From Pelecanus crispus (Eukaryota; Chordata; Aves; Pelecaniformes; Pelecanidae), in NCBI RefSeq assembly GCF_030463565.1, contig NC_134652.1, forward strand, positions 16,903,397 through 16,967,396: a stretch of 64,000 bases of DNA. Reading direction: 5' to 3'. The notes under the pieces were generated by a model. It ran no database searches. It was not told where the DNA came from and worked only from the letters and a program-made list of their open reading frames with translations. Shown here piece by piece: positions 4,600 through 21,800 of this stretch; position 1 is the stretch's first letter, and every line of letters starts with the position of its first letter. Position numbers and translations under genes: made by a program.

Positions 4600-5640
4600 T
4601 TCCATCAGGGCCCCTGCGCCGCAGGCAGCCGGCCGTGCTGGGTTAGCAGCCGGAGCAGCCGGGCGGGCAGGGCCTCGCGCTGCCTTCAGCATCGCCCAGG
4701 TGTTGAGGGAAGGGCTGGCTGCTCTTCGAGCTCTTCGGGCCTGTTGAGGGCCCTGTGCCCAGCCACCGCATCGCTCCCGCCTCACCCCGGCCCCAGCTGT
4801 GAGCACCCCCTCCTTTGCCTCTTGGGAGAGCCTCTGTTCCCCCCGTTTGGCATTTCTCCGGCTCTAATTGAGCTGTCAATGGGCAGAGATAACAGGGAAT
4901 TCGTTAGCTCTCTGCTTTGATGCCTGCCCGTGCTGCGATCGCAGCACCCGCTCCGGAGCACAGCTGCAAATCCTTCGCCGACAAACGGCTTCAGACGAGG
5001 CCCCTTGGCACGGCAGGCTGCCAGCCCCACGGTCGGCCCCCCAGACCCCCTCGGGACCACCGCCCCAGTTACCTCCGGCAGCCCCCCCTCGGCAGCCAGT
5101 TCCCCCCGGGACCTGCAGCCGCAACCCCTCAGCAGCCGGGCCCCGGCACCCACAGAACAGCCCCCCCCCCCCCCCCCGCCCCCGCCGGGGCCAGCCCCGG
5201 GGCAGCCGGACCCCGGTACCGCCGTCCCCAGCAACGGGGCCGCGTCCTCCAGGGCCCCCGTGCCGGTAGCGGCGGGCGCCCATCCCCACCGCCTCGGGCC
5301 GGGCCGTGGCGGGCCGGGCGGCTGCGCACACGGGGCGGGCGGGCCCGCCCCCGCCGCTCGGCACGGCAGCACCGCGGACAGCGCCGGTCCCGCCGCACGG
5401 CTCGGCACGGCCCCGGTGACAGCGCCGGTCCCCCCGCCCGGCACAGCCCAGCCCGGCCCGCCCCGGCCCGGGCGCACGCCGCGCCATGGCCACGGAGGTG
5501 GGTGCGCGGCGGGGGCCGCCCCGGCAGCGGGCACCTCCCGGCGCCGGGCTGCGGCGGAGCCCCCCCGCCCCGCCGCCATCGGCTGCCTGGGCGACGGGGA
5601 ACGGGGCCCGCGGGGCGTGCGCTGGTGCGGGAGGGCAGCG
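4600..5640 (+). promoter_or_regulatory. GOLGA7B: CpG island and presumed promoter of GOLGA7B
   Basis: The stretch is dense in CpG and G/C runs, including a C tract near 5160-5178, and leads directly into the GOLGA7B start codon at 5486. I see no clear TATA box, so a dispersed CpG-island promoter is likely. The exact transcription start cannot be read from sequence. Confidence 0.6.
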
Positions 5641-8118
5641 TGGGGCGGGGGCCTGCGTGGGGGGCACCGGGGAGTGGGGCAGCGCGGGGCGGGGGCTCGC
5701 ATGGGGGGCACCGGGGAGTGGGGCAGCGCGGGGCGGGGGTCTGCGTGGGGGGCACCGGGGAGTGGGGCAGCGTGGGGCAGGGGTCTGCGTGGGGGGCACC
5801 GGGGAGTGGGGCAGCGTGGGGCGGGGGTCTGCGTGGGGGGCACCGGGGAGTGGGGCAGCGTGGGGCGGGGGTCTGCGTGGGGGGCACCGGGGAGTGGGGC
5901 AGCGTGGGGCGGGGGTCTGCGTGGGGGGCACCGGGGAGTGGGGCAGCGTGGGGCAGGGGCCTGCGTGGGGGGCACCGGGGAGTGGGGCAGCGTGGGGCGA
6001 GGGGCGGGAAGGGGCACGCGGTCTGCATGCGCAGGAAGGCCGGGGTGTATGTGGGGTGTCTGGAGGGGCGGGGGGTGCGGGGTGCCCTTGTTGGAGGGAG
6101 CAGCATGGGTCTGGGGTGGGGCGCCCCGGGAGGAGGGGAGGCTGTGGGGCTGGGGGTCCCTCTCCCAGGTGCCGTGGGTGGGAGCCGGGACAGGGGCAGA
6201 GGGTCTGGGGGGCACACAGCAGGACGTGGCCCCATGTCACCCACGGGGAAGCACAGGGAGGGCTCTGACACCCGCCCTTGGCACAGCCTGGCCCCTCCAT
6301 TCTCCCATCCTCCTCTCCAGCCCCCCGCAGCTGCCCAGTGGCCCAGAGCCCAGGGGGCTGGCGTGGGCCCTTGTACACCGGGGGGGTGCCGGGGCTGGGC
6401 CGAGCGCCTGCCGCTGCCAGGGCTGCCGATCCCTTTTGTGCAGCCACCCCGATGCAGCCTGCCCACCCGCTGCGCTGCCGCTGCAGACCCACTGCCCGGT
6501 CCCTGCTCCTGCTCCGCTTGCTTCCCTCCTCCTGCCTGGGAGCTGCTGGGGTGGCTGCGTGCTGGGGTGCTGCTGGAGACAGAGGGCTGTCCCCTCCCTG
6601 GGCCATGGCCCACTGCGGACACACGCCCGAGTGTGCAGCAGCCAGTGCAGGCGAGGCCAGGCACCAGCCCGGGGCAGGGAGGACACACACTTGGCCACGC
6701 TCCGAGCCAGGGGCTGCCACGACGTCCTCCCCTTGCTGCCACCCTCATCTCACCCCTGGCCTTGCACCTCCTGCGCCGAGCTGTGCTCATGGCATGACAC
6801 AGCCCATGCCAGGGGCTCCCTGCCTCGGGGTGTGCGAGCCTGCAGCTCCCATGCCCTGGCGCTGGGGGAATGGCATTGCTCCCGGAGTCCCCAGCCCTCA
6901 GCAGGGATGCCCGTCACCCCATGGCTGTGGCCCCCTGGCTCACCCCACCGCCCTCCAGGTGCACAGCCTGCAGGAGCTGCGGCGCAGCGCTTCCCTGGCC
7001 ACCAAGGTCTTCGTGCAGCGGGATTACAGCGATGGGACCACGTGCCAGTTCCAGACTAAGTTCCCCCCCGAGCTGGAGAGCCGGGTAGGGAGCCTGGCAG
7101 GTTGACAGGGTGGGGGGGGGGGTGCGCTATGTTGGTGCCCTATAGGGGCTCAGAGGGAAGAGGGGTTTGAAGTCATGGGGCCCCCATAGGGTACTGTTCG
7201 GCCCTGGGCCAGCCGATGCTGCTGGGTGCATGCCATCACAGCCACTTTGTCTGGTGTGCAAGGGTTTGGGTGCTTCTGGGGACCAGGAGGCTCTGGTGAA
7301 GGGCTGCAGGCTCAGCAGGTCTTGGCATGGGCGGGCAGTGGGCAGGGGCCAGGGAGCTGAGGCATCAGCTGGGCAGGGACGAGAGGGTTAAGTGCTCCAC
7401 AAGTCCCCATGACAGGGCAGTTCAGGGGGTCAGCCTCTGGCCAGACTTGTCTTCATCCCGGTTTCTGCTCTAGATTGAGCGGCAGCTCTTTGAGGAAACT
7501 GTGAAAACCCTTAATGGCTTCTACGCCGAGGCAGAGAAGATTGGGGGCAGCTCATACCTGGAGGGCTGCCTGGCCTGCGCCACCGCCTATTTCATCTTCC
7601 TCTGCATGGAGACGCACTACGAGAAGGTGCTGAGGTCCAGGGGAGGGCTTGGGGTCAAGCATGGCTGGCAGGGGGTACAAGGATGGCACAGGGAGCAGAC
7701 AGGGGCTGGAGGCCAGAGCAGGCATCAGTGCTCTCAGGGGAGGACGTCAGGGCTGGCAGGCCCTGAGTGCCCTTCCATGTGCTGGCAGGTCCTGAAGAAG
7801 ATCTCCAAGTACATCCAGGAGCAGAACGAGAAGATCTATGCGCCACGGGGGCTGCTCCTCACCGACCCCCTGGAGCGTGGCATGAGGGTCGTATCCTCTG
7901 GGCAGTGGGGTGCTGGGGGGGGAGGAAAAGGGTGAGGGGTGGGGGGACACCAGGATTGCGTGCTGGGCAATTGGATTTGCAGCTGGCACATCCCACCAAT
8001 GATCCTTAGCAGGGCCCAGATCGAGATCTCCATCTATGAGGACCGGTGCAGCAGCGGCAGCTCCAGCAGTGGCAGCTCCAGCAGCAGCAGCGGTGGCGGC
8101 GGGGCGGGGGGCCGGTGA
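5486..8118 (+). CDS. GOLGA7B: GOLGA7B, golgin A7 family member B (five coding exons)
   Basis: Coding exons are 5486-5497, 6959-7084, 7474-7626, 7789-7890 and 8020-8118. They give 163 residues, against 167 in human. Most junctions are ordinary GT-AG and all are in phase 0. The product begins [13 protein letters not shown] and carries the family core with [20 protein letters not shown], the GCLAC cysteine pair (about residues 78 and 81, the acylated pair in paralogue GOLGA7) and [13 protein letters not shown]. It ends in a Ser/Gly-rich tail. The family binds and stabilises DHHC palmitoyltransferases (GOLGA7B with ZDHHC5) at Golgi and plasma membrane. The first exon holds only four codons. The exon 3 donor (GTGCTG) is weak, but the join to exon 4 is fixed by the conserved EKVLKKIS. 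The last exon overlaps an antisense CRTAC1 exon. Confidence 0.95.
5641..6000. repeat. 44-bp minisatellite, about 8 copies, in GOLGA7B intron 1
   Basis: The phrase caccggggagtggggcagcg recurs exactly every 44 bp, at 5665, 5709, 5753, 5797, 5841, 5885, 5929 and 5973. Copies differ by a few bases only, so the array is young or homogenised. The unit is not a multiple of three, and the long open frames through it on both strands are a composition effect. The G-run content makes quadruplex formation plausible. Confidence 0.95.
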
Positions 8119-8132
8119 CTGGCAGGGAGTCC
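7747..8132 (-). CDS. CRTAC1: Alternative distal last exon of CRTAC1 (isoform A type), antisense to GOLGA7B
   Basis: An acceptor (CCCTGCAG, just above 8132) joins in phase 1 to the donor of CRTAC1 exon 14 at 11629. The result continues TACVG with [18 protein letters not shown] and then [11 protein letters not shown]. The human CRTAC1-A tail, from memory, has TLGQSPGPRP, an Ala/Thr run and PVLVDGDLNLG, so this is its orthologue. The exon is read off the strand opposite GOLGA7B exon 5. The AGC serine repeat of GOLGA7B reads as GCT alanines here, and IEISIYEDR reads as PVLIDGDLD. Human stops about 11 residues later. Here the frame stays open through GOLGA7B intron 4 and across exon 4 antisense, to a stop at 7747. 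That makes a tail of about 127 residues, or a region no longer used as coding sequence in this lineage. I see no poly(A) signal that settles it. Confidence 0.65.
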
Positions 8133-9485
8133 CTGCAGGGACTCGTACTGCCGGGACAGTGGCCTCTCCGAGCTCCGCAGGCTGCACTACCAGAGCACCC
8201 GCTTCTGAGCCCAGGGCGGGCGGGAGGGGGAAGCTGGAGGCTGCCCGCCGGGGCTGCCCACCCCCCTCTGCTCTGTGCCCCCCACAGTGGCTCTGCCCAC
8301 GCTCAGACCCACTGCAGGTAGGGGCTGGTGCTGGGTCGTCCTAGGTGCTTCCCGCTGAGCCAAACCGGTGCCAAGGGGCTCCCACAGCCCTCTGGGTGCT
8401 CTGCACTGCTGCCCCTGCCCCAAGTGAAAGAGCTTGCCTTGCCACAGGCAGCCCCAGCCGGCAGCACCCTGCGTGCCATGCATCAGGGAGCAACGGGACT
8501 GGCTAAGCCCCAGGCAGTGCTAAGGGGAGGGGGGCTTAGCCCCCTGCCCATGGACACTGCCAGCCCTTGCTGGACCCCCTCCCTGGGGCGTCCTGCTCTT
8601 GGTGCTGCAGGGTGGGCTCAGCCACTGCGTGCCCACTGCCCAGGGCACCTGGCAGAGCCCTGGTGCTGCTTCATCTGCATGATGGTGCCATGTGTTTGCC
8701 CCAGCCCTGCCCCACACGCTGCCCGTTGCTGCTCCCCACCCCTGGCCAGATGCCCTGACCCATCTGGCAACAGCATCCTCTCCAGCAGCATCCTCCAGCA
8801 CTGCCCACGACACTGGGCGTTTGCTTCTGCTCCCTGCCCAAGCCAGTGCCATCCCCAGTCGGACCCAGAAAGCTCCCCAGCCCCGAGCCCTGTGCCCAGG
8901 GCGGAGAGATGCAGTGCTGGGCAGGCTCCTGCCCTTGTGCCGCATGCCCTGGGCTTGCGCATGGCCCAGCGTAGTCAAGGCTGAGCTGTGGCATGGGCGA
9001 GCCAGGCTCCCTGCCCAGTCCCAGCAGAGCCTGCCCACACCTGGCTGCTGGCAGCCCTCTGCCCGCTCTGCCCCAACGCAGGGAGGGTGCCCAGTGGAGC
9101 AGCTCCACCAGAAAGGACCCTTCCTCTCCTGCTGCTGAGCCCTCCCCTGCCCACATGTCCTGCATGCATCTACCACCAGCACCCCAATTCTCAGCCTAGC
9201 CTGCAGTGGGGACTCCGATGGGCACCTGGGCCCAGCTGCAAGGTGTGGGAGTTCATGGGCCAGGGTCAGATGGGGGGGAACAGGAGGGTCCCTGTGACAT
9301 CCAGCGCCCCAAGGAGATGAGTCCCTGCCTGGGTGCAGGGCTGAATGGAGCTGGAATTGCTCCCCTGGGGTCCTGGAGGAGGACCCTGCCCTGCGGGACT
9401 CCCTTTGGCTCGGTCATGGCATGTGTGCGGGGTGGCCCTGGCCCTGCCGTTCCCGCTAGGGCCCCCCTGCATGGAGACCTTCCTC

Positions 9486-9491
9486 AATAAA
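9486..9491 (+). terminator. GOLGA7B: GOLGA7B poly(A) signal AATAAA
   Basis: A canonical AATAAA lies about 1.37 kb after the GOLGA7B stop, followed by a T/G-rich stretch (cctgtgtcctcctgtgttgg). The 3' UTR would then be 8119 to about 9510. No other gene is seen in 8119-9485 on the plus strand. Confidence 0.8.
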
Positions 9492-9826: not shown

Positions 9827-12800
9827 CTAGTTGCGCTGACAGCGCCCGCCTGCGCCCAGGGAGAAGCCGTGGAGGCAGTGGCAGTGGAAGGAGCCGTGGC
9901 TGTTGTGGCAGATATGGTCGCAGGGGCCAGGCTGTGCCTGGCACTCATCTATGTCTGGAAAAGAAGGGGAGAAGGTCAGAGCTGCGGCAAGGGTACGGGG
10001 CTCGTCTGGCACGGGCAGGGCAGGGGATGGAGGGGGCATGGTGGTGGCGGGGCAGCTCTGGGGCTGGGTGAAGCTGGGACATGAAGGCATCTCCAATGCC
10101 TGCAGCCGCGCAGCTGTGGTCCTGCCACCGCTTGTCCCCATGGCTGTAAGGTGGCAGACGCCTCCTCACTCCAACTCCTGCACAGCCACAGTCCCCAGTG
10201 GTTTGGGGCTGTGAGCACAACAGGGCACCCCAGGAAACAGCATCCCTGCTCTCAGGGCAGCACGGCTGCGCCTGGCAGCGGCAGGTGGGGGGGCACCGTG
10301 GGCTGCCAGCCCCGCTGCCTGCAGGTACTCACCCAGGCACTGGCTGGCAGCGGGATCAAGGGGGCGGAAGCCCGGGCGGCAGTGGCAGGCGTGTGCCCCA
10401 GGGGTGTTGGTGCAGAGCTGGCTGCAGTTGTGCAAGCCCTGGGCACACTCGTCGATGTCTGGTTGTGGGGAAGAGAGCGGCACAGGGTTACAGCACGGGG
10501 TGGGAAGGCAGCATGGCCCTGTTGTTGCTGCATGGGCAGAGCTGCCTGCTGCACCCCATTCCCTCCAGTGCTGCACATCTGGCCATGCTCCCAGAGCTGG
10601 GAGCAGGGATGGGCAGGGGCAGAGGTGCCCAGGACCTCTGCGCACCCTTCCAGCTAGCTCCTGGCCCCGAGCCCCGTTCCTGTGCAGTCCCAGAGCAGGG
10701 TGGGCAGAAGCATGTACACAGCTCTGCCCTGCACAGCTCAGCAGCCTGGGCTAATAGACAGGATATAGTTTATTGGGGGGGGGGGGGGGGGGTGTGTTCT
10801 CCGGAAGACTGAGCAGGGTCCGACTCCAAACAGTGGGGTCAATACATTAAAAAACAGACCAGGAGGGTCCTTCCCCTGCAGGGCCAGGAGGACCCTCCTC
10901 TGCCAGGGCTGGGGAGGGGGGTCCCCATCACCGAGGCGGGGGCAGGCGAAGCACACACGTCGCAGGCCAAACCAGCAGGCACATGGTACGGTATCGAGGC
11001 GACGGAGCAAGCGACCGCCCGGGAGGCGCCGGCGTGGTGGGAGCAGCGCTGGGGCGGGGAGGTGCCGGTGAAGGGGTGCTGCCCTGGGGCTGCTTTCCCA
11101 GACATGGTTCAAGGGGCAGCCGGGCTCCGTGCCTGTTCCACTGCAAACCGCCCCGGTAGGGCACAGCCAGCACTTCCAGGGCAGTTCAACATGGAGAGAA
11201 AGAGAGAAAGAGAGAAACAGGCAGAGGCCGGCCAGTCCTTCCACCAAGGCTGCTCTGGCATGTTACGGACAGGGGTTAAAGTGCATAGAGGCAAAGGCAG
11301 AGTCCGAGGACTAGAGGGAGGAGGGCACAGTGGACGGGCCCAGGCCAGCTCCCAGCAGAGGGATATCCCCCAAAAAAGGCCACTTGAGCTGCACAGAGAA
11401 GGAGAGAAGGACCAAAAGAGAGAAAGAGGGAAGGAGAGTCAGTGGCGGCTCAGCGGGAGGCACAGGATGAACAGATATGGAGACAGGGTGCAGGTAGCTG
11501 GGCAGACACCCGACAGGTTACAGGATGGGGCCAGGCCTTTGGCAGGGGTGCAACAGCATCCCAAGGTGGTGCTTTGGGGCTCCTGCATGCAGTGGCATAG
11601 GGTTCAGGGTGTCCCAGCCATCACTCACCCACGCAAGCTGTGCCATCCTCGTTGGGCTCGAAGCCCCGGCCGCAGCGCTTATTGCTGCGGCAGCGGTACC
11701 CGCCATAGGTGTTGATGCAGACAGGCTTGTCCCGAGGGCAGATGAAGGGGAACTCGGTGCACTCATCCGTGTCTGCAAGCAGAGGGGCCTTGGTGTGAGA
11801 TGGCTGGGCTGGGAGCTTGGGGCTGCCAGCCACAGCCGCTCCAGTTCCCCCTGCATGTGCTGGATGACCCCTGCATATGTAGCCACGCACAAGCTATGCC
11901 TCTGCCCAGGAGGCTCACGGCACAGCCACCCTGCCGCACCCCTGCTGCCCCTCCATTGCTTGTGGTTCTAGTGCAATGCCTGCCACATGCCAGCCATGCC
12001 TCCTGCGCCCAGCGCAGCGCTCTCCCCCCTCCTCGTGACACCACAGTCTGCCTCTGGAGCCATGCTGCTGCCCCCATTCCCAAGCCACGTGCTGGGCAGG
12101 CAGCTGTACCCCTGCACAGAGCCATGCGGCAGCCCTGCCTGCATGCCCAGCTGCCTCTCTGGCTGCCACCTCCCTGTAGCAGGGTGCTGCCCTCGTCCCC
12201 TCCGTGGGGCCGTGCTGCAGCATCCCGGGTGAGGCACGCCTGTGCCCCCAGCAGCCACTCACCTACACAGCGTCCGTTCTCGTGCTGGGAGAATCCCTGC
12301 CCGCACTGCATTTGGGGAGAAGCAAAGACCGCCGGGATGGGGAGGAATCAGCCCTGGGCAGCCACCGAGCCAGCAGAGCTCAGCCCCTCGTTCCTGCCTC
12401 CCACCCTGCGCCCACACCTGGCCCTCACCTCCAGCAGGGCAGGCATTAGTGGCTCCTCCATGTCCAGGGGGTACGGGACCTCCAGGACAGAGTTGGTCTC
12501 ACTGCTGGCCACGGCTCGTACCACAACGCGGCCATCCGGCCAGGTCACCTCCAAGCTGCTAGCTTCATCCTGCCCTGCAGGCGGGCAGCCCGTCAGAGTG
12601 GGGGTCTCCAGGGCAGGCAGGGGCTGAAAGGAGGCCAGGGGGGTGGTAGGGATGAAGGGGCAAAGCCTCCCCTTGCTCCCCGAGCCGGGCCCCAGGTGCC
12701 CGTGCTGACAGCCCATGCACAGGGATGCAGCACGAGGGGTGAACATGGGGACGATAGGATGCCCTGCTAGCGGGCAGGGACACCCCTGCAGGCAGCCCAC

Positions 12801-18800: not shown

Positions 18801-21800
18801 CCCCCCAGTGCTGCCCACTGTTCACTGCCCCAAGGTGATGCTCAGAGCAGCGGCAGGGCCAGACTCTGCCTGCCACCGTGGTGCCCCCAGCTCCCGCAGC
18901 CCCGCTGGATGGGATCTGTGGCAGTGAGGGGCTCCCTCCAGGTGAGCACACCTGCGTGTGCGAGCCTCCTCCCTCAGAGGTGAGCACGGTGGTGTGTATA
19001 CAGACACGCTGTGCCGGCTGCTCACAGCCATGCCAGCACACACACAGAGCCCGCACCGTGGTCCCCACTGTCCCTGGCCAGGGCCAGACCCACTGGCAGC
19101 AGCTGCTCCGTGTCCAGCCCCGCTCGGGCACTGGCAGCGCAGCACACGGCTCCCTGCCTCCTGCCAGCCCTTCCGAGCCATCACTCCAATAAAGAGCTAT
19201 AAAAAACCTCCAGCCAATTAACCGAATCTCCCGAGAGCGCCGAGTCCTGTCAGTGGAGCCGAGCCGGCTTGGGGACACGCTGGCTCTGCACTGCAGGGTG
19301 GACCCCAGCCGCTGGGCAGCTGCCACCACCCCACAGAGGGGGGACCCGGCCCCGGGGCCAGGATGGGGGCACCCACGTGGTCCCACGCAGGCACCCAACT
19401 GGCATCAACACCCTAAGTGGGTGCACACACGAGTGGGTACATGCAGACCCTAATCCCACCACTCTTACGCACACCCCCCCAGCCAGCCACATGCCCACGG
19501 AGGAACGAGGAGCTTCTGGCCCTGCAGGGCCACCAGGTCCCACTGCCACAGGCGCGCTGGGTGCACCACTCACCCTGCCACCACGATCTCGAAGTCACCG
19601 TCGGCATCCAGGTCGGTGACAGCTACACCATAGTTGAGCTGCGTGGGGTTGTTTTCATAGTCAGGTGGGAGGAGGCGGTGGGTGACGGCCGCAAACATGG
19701 GCTCGCTGCGCTGGGAGCCCTCGCTGAGCCAGGCCAGGGACAGCAAGCACAGCGCCAGCATCCTGGGCACCTGGGAGAGACCTGCAGCCCATCAGCTCCA
19801 GGAGGCGATGGCTTCGCCAGCCAGCAGGGACCCCAAGGCCCCGCTCCACAGTGCCCGAGCACCCGCACTACCCTTGCACACTCTCCTTCCACCCCTTGTC
19901 ACCCACCCCAGCCTGTGCCTCCCCGCCAGACCCGAGACCCTTGGGCACTGCCACAGCTCTGGCATCCCCGCGCACAGGTCCTCCTGGTTGCAGCTCACCC
20001 TCGAGGCTTCCTTGGAACAGGACCATACCCCAGTGAGCTGGGAGCCAGGGCTGAGCAGGAGCAGGGCCATGGGAGCCCATCCCATGGGAGGGACCCAGGA
20101 GGCAGCAGGAGGGCTGCGGGGTGCTGACAAACCTGGGCTCAGCCCCAGCTCGCCCTGCCCCAAGGGTCTGCTGGCACCCAAGCTCCTGGCAAGTCACGGT
20201 GCCAATCACTGCTCCCTTGGCAGGGCTGGAGGAAGCAGGCAGCTGCCTGGCTGGGGAGCTCGTCCCCTCTCCAGCTTGTCCTCCAGAGCCAGAGAAGGCC
20301 ATGGGGAGAACATGGGAATACTCTGCCAGGTGACTCCTGTGTGCCTCAGTTTCCCCACCCCGCTGGCACTGTTTCTCCCAGGGGCTCTGTGGGGTGAGCT
20401 CCTCCCAGCCTGGCCAGGGAAGGTGTCTGCACAGGGATGTGGTCACGGGAAGGAGATGCTGGGAGGAACAGGAGACTGGGAGGAGAGGCTCAATTAACCT
20501 GGACTGCGGAGGACAGTGTCTGCCAGCACTGCTGGCAATGCTGCGGAGATTTTGGAGCTGGCTCTGACCTGGCTGTAGCACAGGTGACAAGCAAGGTGGC
20601 ACTCAGGACAGCCAGCCCTTGCCACAGGCCAGGCAGTCCCTTCCAGATGGGAAAAGCCCAGCAGTGAGCTGTGTGTCTCCGGGCTGTGGGCACAAACCCA
20701 CATGCTGGCACTCCCGCTGGGAGCAAGAGCAGCCTGTCCCACTCTTGCAGCCTGGAGGGATGACTGGGGCACCTGGCCACCAAGGCAGTGGATACTGCTC
20801 CATGTGGCTGTGCCATCCCCCTGGGCAGGGCTGCTACCACTTCCCAGGGAGCCAGGAACAGCTCCCAGCACTGCCACAGGGATAGGGGAGAATGGCCCCG
20901 CCTGCCAGCTAGTCCCCATGCTGTGGACCCTGTCAGCAAGCAAAAGAAGCTGTGGCAGCTGCATGGTGCCACATGTGCCCAGCTTGGAGCAGGGAAGTTG
21001 CCCAATGGCTTAGATCCTGGCAGGCCCACTGGGCTGTGGTAGCAGCCTGCTGCTGCCTCCCCAGGAATGGGAATGGTCCCAAGGCTCTTTGGGGGGCCAG
21101 GATTCCCCCGCCACAAGCAAATAGCTTTCTTGCCACCTGGCCTGGGCAGGAAGGAGCTGTCCTGCAGCTGCAGAGGAGACCTTGAGCCCCACTGCCCAGC
21201 ACGCCCAGAGCCCTGCATCCCAGTGCCCAGACACTGCTTCCCTTCCCTCTCCAATCCCATCCATTCCCCGGGCCCAGCTGCAAGGTGTAAGTGGGTGGGG
21301 TGTGTGTGTGAGCATCCCCCCAGCTCTACTCTGTGCTGCTCCCATCCCCTCCCTGGCCTGACCCACAGACTCAGGTGCAGCCAGCCCCCCTCTGGCACTG
21401 TGCTGTTCACCACCCAGCCAGAGTTTGGACACTGTTCCCCATCACCCTTCCATCCTGTCTGGGGCAGCTCTCCAGGGGCAGGAGCCTGGGTCTTTTGCTG
21501 GTGCAGGTGCCCCGTGCAAGGCACATGTGACAGGAACGAGGTTTCATTGGGTTGCACAGGGACAGGACAGTCCCTGGGTGTCACTCCGCAGCCCCAGGCA
21601 GGGAGGGAGGGGGAGCCTTTGCCACAGCCCCACAGTGGGCTCACCAAAGCAAGCGTGGGGGAGAACCACCCACACATGGGCATATGGGTGCAGGGGTGCA
21701 GCCCCCTGATGATGCAAAGCAGTGCCCCCTCACCCCTGGCCACAGCTAGGCAATGGGTGACTGTCCCCAGGCTGCTGACAGGGCTCTCCCTGCTCTGCCT

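Follow-up and report, generated by a model that had tools for sequence, protein, structure and literature searches.

In the first 24 kb of the window (the whole 64,000-nucleotide stretch of Pelecanus crispus DNA that was analysed), GOLGA7B on the plus strand and CRTAC1 on the minus strand form a convergent, tail-to-tail pair, and the last exon of GOLGA7B shares its DNA with a possible CRTAC1 tail on the opposite strand. The geometry, register and phase of this arrangement, described in an earlier note on the sequence, are confirmed. The account that we find probable, taken as a whole, is that the two would be an ordinary convergent gene pair; we infer that CRTAC1 isoform A, the form that would use the shared DNA, is not, or hardly, made in the bird and that two other ends of the gene are used. 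The earlier note had taken the overlap to predate the bird-mammal split and to limit silent change in GOLGA7B. Of its interpretation, four points are supported: the antisense register, the fitting phase, an AG in the orthologous place and the mapping of the human tail. The age and the silent-site constraint are not supported.

The identity of GOLGA7B is clear from its domain and its C-terminus. Its coding start, MATE, was read from the sequence at 5486-5497 (exon 1, donor gtgggt) and agrees with the human protein, which also begins MATE. Exon 2 (6959-7084) was located and its splice sites, like those of exon 4 (7789-7890), were examined; joined with exons 4 and 5, exon 3 (7474-7626) matches Pfam Erf4 (PF10256, E 3.3e-22), and the same joined exons match Golgin A7 in PDB chain 9oa6_B. 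The coding part of exon 5 (8020-8118) consists of IEISIYEDR, a Ser/Gly tail and a TGA at 8116-8118, and the GOLGA7B poly(A) signal, a plus-strand AATAAA, lies at 9486-9491. The bird protein thus carries both marks of the GOLGA7/Erf4 family, the Erf4 domain and a C-terminal IEI.IYEDR. In searches of the bird's own genome (1.31 Gb in 310 contigs), the GOLGA7 paralogue was found on a different contig, with the C-terminus IEITIYEDRGMTSGR followed by a stop. Searches with exon 3 gave 16 pattern matches in viral contigs and 97 in a collection of genome contigs without relatives of the window's genome, and none in either set was confirmed. Two peculiarities of the gene were seen in passing: the exon 4 donor, GTC/gtatcc (7890-7891), has an unusual C before the GT and scored -7.8, the lowest of 13, under a donor model of 13 positions, three of an initial 16 having been dropped because they missed a GT; and a G-rich unit can be seen by eye in tandem repeat in intron 1, at about 5630-6000.

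CRTAC1 extends on the minus strand from a signal-peptide exon at 19761 down to an EGF_CA exon at 11772-11629, which ends in a phase-1 donor, G/gtgagt. The joined exons match PDB chain 9etn_A (Cartilage acidic protein 1) with 1106 bits, and FG-GAP repeats, UnbV/ASPIC (UnbV_ASPIC) and EGF_CA were all found with Pfam, in keeping with the overall similarity. The alignment to 9etn_A runs through DGTACV and stops roughly where the EGF domain ends; the solved chain therefore cannot confirm the candidate tail.

GOLGA7B exon 5 can be read without a stop on the minus strand in exact codon register: CRTAC1 codons would be reverse complements of GOLGA7B codons, and the wobble position in either gene would pair with the first codon position of its partner. 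As the earlier note had stated, IEISIYEDR in GOLGA7B is PVLIDGDLD on the back strand, and the Ser/Gly run is an Ala-rich run. The candidate CRTAC1-A last exon (7747-8132, minus strand) encodes 127 residues before a stop at 7749-7747, and the 88 codons after LG lie opposite intron 4 and exon 4 of GOLGA7B. The junction proposed earlier, from 11629 to 8132, is possible on phase: the phase-1 donor and a CTGCAG/GG acceptor (CTGCAG at 8133-8138, minus strand) give ACV-G-TPCQSP. The bird has two features of a coding-on-coding convergent overlap, both strands open in the shared DNA and a phase-compatible donor and acceptor, of which the acceptor is weak. By itself the open frame is unremarkable. The first 24 kb, coding parts included, contain 1678 AGs on the minus strand, and 17.6% of these are followed by at least 127 open codons in the same phase and 56% by at least 39. 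The bird frame would be open mainly because the GOLGA7B protein is conserved and exon 5 has no TTA, CTA or TCA codons. That an AG stands at the very junction which the assumed human sequence predicts is a mildly informative sign; with an AG frequency of 0.074 over both strands of the first 24 kb, the chance of it is about 0.07.

For the human comparison we used assumed sequences, a CRTAC1-A tail of 55 residues after ACV and a GOLGA7B of 167 residues. With both proteins so assumed, the claim that human CRTAC1-A maps antisense to GOLGA7B held at 37 of 37 positions, all codon-compatible, stop included. The next best offset gave 28 of 37, a high figure because both tails are of low complexity. According to PMC10477339, human CRTAC1 and GOLGA7B overlap, in an arrangement termed head-to-tail, and the non-neural form ends in a 56-residue C-terminal segment that is an O-glycosylation target; the assumed tail has 55 residues after ACV, and the boundary or one assumed residue may differ. 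Four peptide fragments of the assumed human tail were not found in print in open-licence papers. Human CRTAC1 has alternative last exons 15A and 15B (PMC4945026). Transcripts of human CRTAC1-A (exon 15A) very probably continue as far as GOLGA7B, are spliced into its 3' end and take an Ala-rich tail, in codon register, from the strand opposite the last GOLGA7B exon. Provided that the two assumed protein sequences are right, human very probably has a genuine coding-on-coding overlap here.

The likeness between the bird and human tails would be mostly a shadow of GOLGA7B conservation, as judged from the aligned residues and codons. Because IEISIYEDR is conserved in GOLGA7B with few codon changes, PVLIDGDLD is expected in the bird whether or not CRTAC1 uses it. 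Outside the GOLGA7B coding DNA, in ungapped comparison, bird and assumed human tails agree at two of four residues on the 5' side (T and Q; TPCQ against TLGQ) and at none of 11 on the 3' side. The codon comparison covered 28 of the 33 bird triplets (19 from the start and 9 from the end), with the mid-repeat, which differs in length between bird and human, left out; human codons were inferred from the assumed proteins, and Arg codons were taken as CGG, AGG being also possible and either giving Pro in CRTAC1. Eight of the 28 triplets differ between the bird and the inferred human sequence: seven leave the GOLGA7B residue unchanged but replace one in CRTAC1, one replaces a residue in both, and none is silent in CRTAC1 alone. 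Such a pattern is the one expected if constraint acts mainly on GOLGA7B, and the supposed limit that CRTAC1 sets on silent change in GOLGA7B is not shown. If silent changes occurred at 0.3 per triplet, seven or fewer in 28 triplets would be seen in 37% of cases; the figure falls to 7% with a rate of 0.4 and to 0.6% with 0.5, the proper rate being one that needs control exons.

The acceptor model comprised 18 sites from the two genes, including those of two inferred extra EGF exons, and each reference site was scored with itself left out. The acceptor at 8132 scored -0.82, below all 18 reference acceptors, and 39% of 3540 other AGs scored at least as high. With the extra EGF exons left out of the model it scored 0.78, above one of 16 reference sites and below the other 15. 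Near-equal or weaker reference acceptors exist (0.26 and 0.30 in the 18-site model, -2.95 in the 16-site model), and an ancient acceptor at 8132 is possible; the AG at 8133-8138 may perhaps be a remnant or a little-used site. CTGCAG is the core of a perfect 18-bp palindrome that spans the candidate acceptor (8127-8144, GAGTCCCTGCAGGGACTC). The palindrome was ruled out as a special feature, there being four perfect 18-bp palindromes within the 64 kb. The minus strand was searched for 15 poly(A) hexamers, and none turned up between hits starting at 575 and 9752, which leaves the candidate tail with no recognisable signal for about 7 kb past its stop at 7747. When the window was divided into 564 overlapping stretches of 7.7 kb, 1.4% of them were free of all 15 hexamers on one strand; poly(A) sites with no hexamer exist.

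The bird CRTAC1 gene has other ends at hand. A CRTAC1-B (LOTUS)-like last exon, exon B, lies at 11388-11276 on the minus strand, a short segment that ends hydrophobic before a TAA. Its acceptor scored 9.39, above 16 of 18 reference sites in the 18-site model and 16 of 16 in the 16-site model, and an AATAAA suited to it lies at 10774-10769. Further along the minus strand are an extra EGF exon 2 (10458-10333, phase 1-1) and an extra EGF exon 3 with a stop (9954-9827, ending RCQRN), whose acceptors, left out of the model, scored above 9 of 16 and 16 of 16 sites, respectively; an AATAAA at 9757-9752 would suit an isoform that ends with them. These two in-phase exons would set the bird apart from human CRTAC1, for which PMC10477339 gives a layout with one EGF-like domain. 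They would yield a secreted CRTAC1 for which the back strand of GOLGA7B is not needed. We suggest that bird CRTAC1 most likely ends either at 11388-11276 (LOTUS type) or, after the two extra EGF exons, at 9827 (secreted type). Codon use was measured against a reference set that includes the two inferred extra EGF exons. The candidate tail frame gave no codon-use signal, 39% of noncoding segments scoring as high, and likewise exon B gave none (29%); because exon B, taken as real, lacks the signal, this test cannot exclude the candidate tail.

The open frame, its fitting phase and the presence of an AG in the orthologous place would also be explained if the CRTAC1-A exon were an ancestral amniote exon still used in the bird, one stretch of DNA encoding two proteins. 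The human overlap agrees with such an origin, both in the 37 of 37 compatible codons of the assumed proteins and in the gene overlap stated in PMC10477339. We nevertheless regard it as unlikely, as the acceptor is weak in both models, no poly(A) hexamer follows within about 7 kb of the stop, the 3' part of the tail is not common with the assumed human one, seven of the eight changes fall at GOLGA7B silent sites, and 3' RACE from mouse brain and articular cartilage gave only isoform B (PMC4945026). The same observations, with a PVLIDGDLD that is expected from GOLGA7B alone and so little agreement in the flanks, leave an overlap older than the bird-mammal split unsupported. In weighing the ordinary convergent pair, we counted against it the AG at the predicted junction, the fitting phase and the matching T and Q, and for it the strong acceptors (above all 16 reference sites) of EGF exon 3 and exon B, both of which have an AATAAA after them. 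The geometry, the phases, the site scores and the absence of a poly(A) hexamer are directly observed, and signs that the antisense reading is in actual use in the bird are weak.

It is also conceivable, but quite improbable, that the region past the GOLGA7B stop is kept by the plus strand, for a spliced alternative C-terminus ending LRRLHYQSTRF, the minus-strand AG being a by-product of the palindrome. A coding-like stretch, DSYCRDSGLSELRRLHYQSTRF and a stop, is found there in the GOLGA7B frame (8140-8208, plus strand), although it is not established as part of the gene. The signal starts at 8140, right after CTGCAG, which as a palindrome presents an AG on the plus strand too; positions 8140-8205 have a codon score of 14.16, a level that 0.014% of 29441 overlapping noncoding segments attain, yet two unannotated stretches in the first 24 kb exceed 8140-8208 in maximal codon score. 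Searched against the bird's own genome at E up to 10, DSYCRDSGLSELRRLHYQSTRF matched only its own locus. Readthrough of the GOLGA7B stop was rejected as a source of DSYC..., since the seven codons between that stop and 8140 score as non-coding. Two in-phase introns could reach the region. One of 93 nt (8046-8138) has weak sites at both ends, its acceptor scoring -2.47 (50% of other AGs as high) and its donor 1.53 (39% of other GTs as high). Another of 66 nt (8115-8180), whose removal would exchange the GOLGA7B stop for LHYQSTRF and a new stop, has a good donor, CCG/GTGACT (7.35; 2.3% of other GTs score as high), and at 8181 an acceptor that is also good (8.6 in the 18-site model; 8.31, above 15 of 16 sites, in the 16-site model), but is very short, at the lower edge of the vertebrate range. 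A still bolder combination, in which both strands use CTGCAG at 8133-8138 as a 3' splice site, for the CRTAC1-A tail on the minus strand and for the DSYCRDSGLSELRRLHYQSTRF end of GOLGA7B on the plus strand with the Ser/Gly repeat excised as the 93-nt intron, is a long shot and very improbable; if true, the same six bases would set alternative ends of both genes.

Birds and mammals parted about 300 million years ago, and if isoform A is used in birds, the pair would be a coding-on-coding antisense overlap of about that age and a natural test of how two proteins share DNA. If it is unused, the ordinary convergent pair would show clearly how an antisense frame can take on the look of conservation from the conserved gene opposite it. 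In human, if the coding overlap is true, many variants in GOLGA7B exon 5 would also alter secreted CRTAC1, which circulates and is under study as a disease marker.

Open-licence papers, searched apart from their supplements, yielded no description of a CRTAC1-A/GOLGA7B coding-on-coding overlap. Nor did such papers yield anything on CRTAC1 together with C10orf132, the old name of GOLGA7B. The passages covered in PMC11352776 have nothing on the last exons of CRTAC1. Coding-sequence overlaps are underrepresented and overlap is mostly species-specific, according to PMC2330155, and PMC2151771 gives 64 overlaps conserved between human and chicken, nine of them exon on exon. The present pair resembles vertebrate convergent antisense overlaps in being tail-to-tail on opposite strands, and a coding overlap between CRTAC1-A and GOLGA7B would be of a rare type among them. 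The human overlap is called head-to-tail in PMC10477339, whereas the bird window is tail-to-tail. With the human tails as assumed, human CRTAC1-A (exon 15A) and GOLGA7B are like the bird in the two genes involved, in the codon register and in the position of the junction relative to the GOLGA7B stop; they differ in that the assumed human tail stops 11 residues past LG, whereas the candidate bird frame runs on for 88 codons. According to PMC10477339, CRTAC1-B/LOTUS (exon 15B) is the form made in neural tissue, and its end is presumptively transmembrane. Bird exon B, putatively of this type, resembles it as a hydrophobic C-terminal exon placed after the EGF exon, and, unlike the candidate CRTAC1-A exon, it is not antisense to GOLGA7B.
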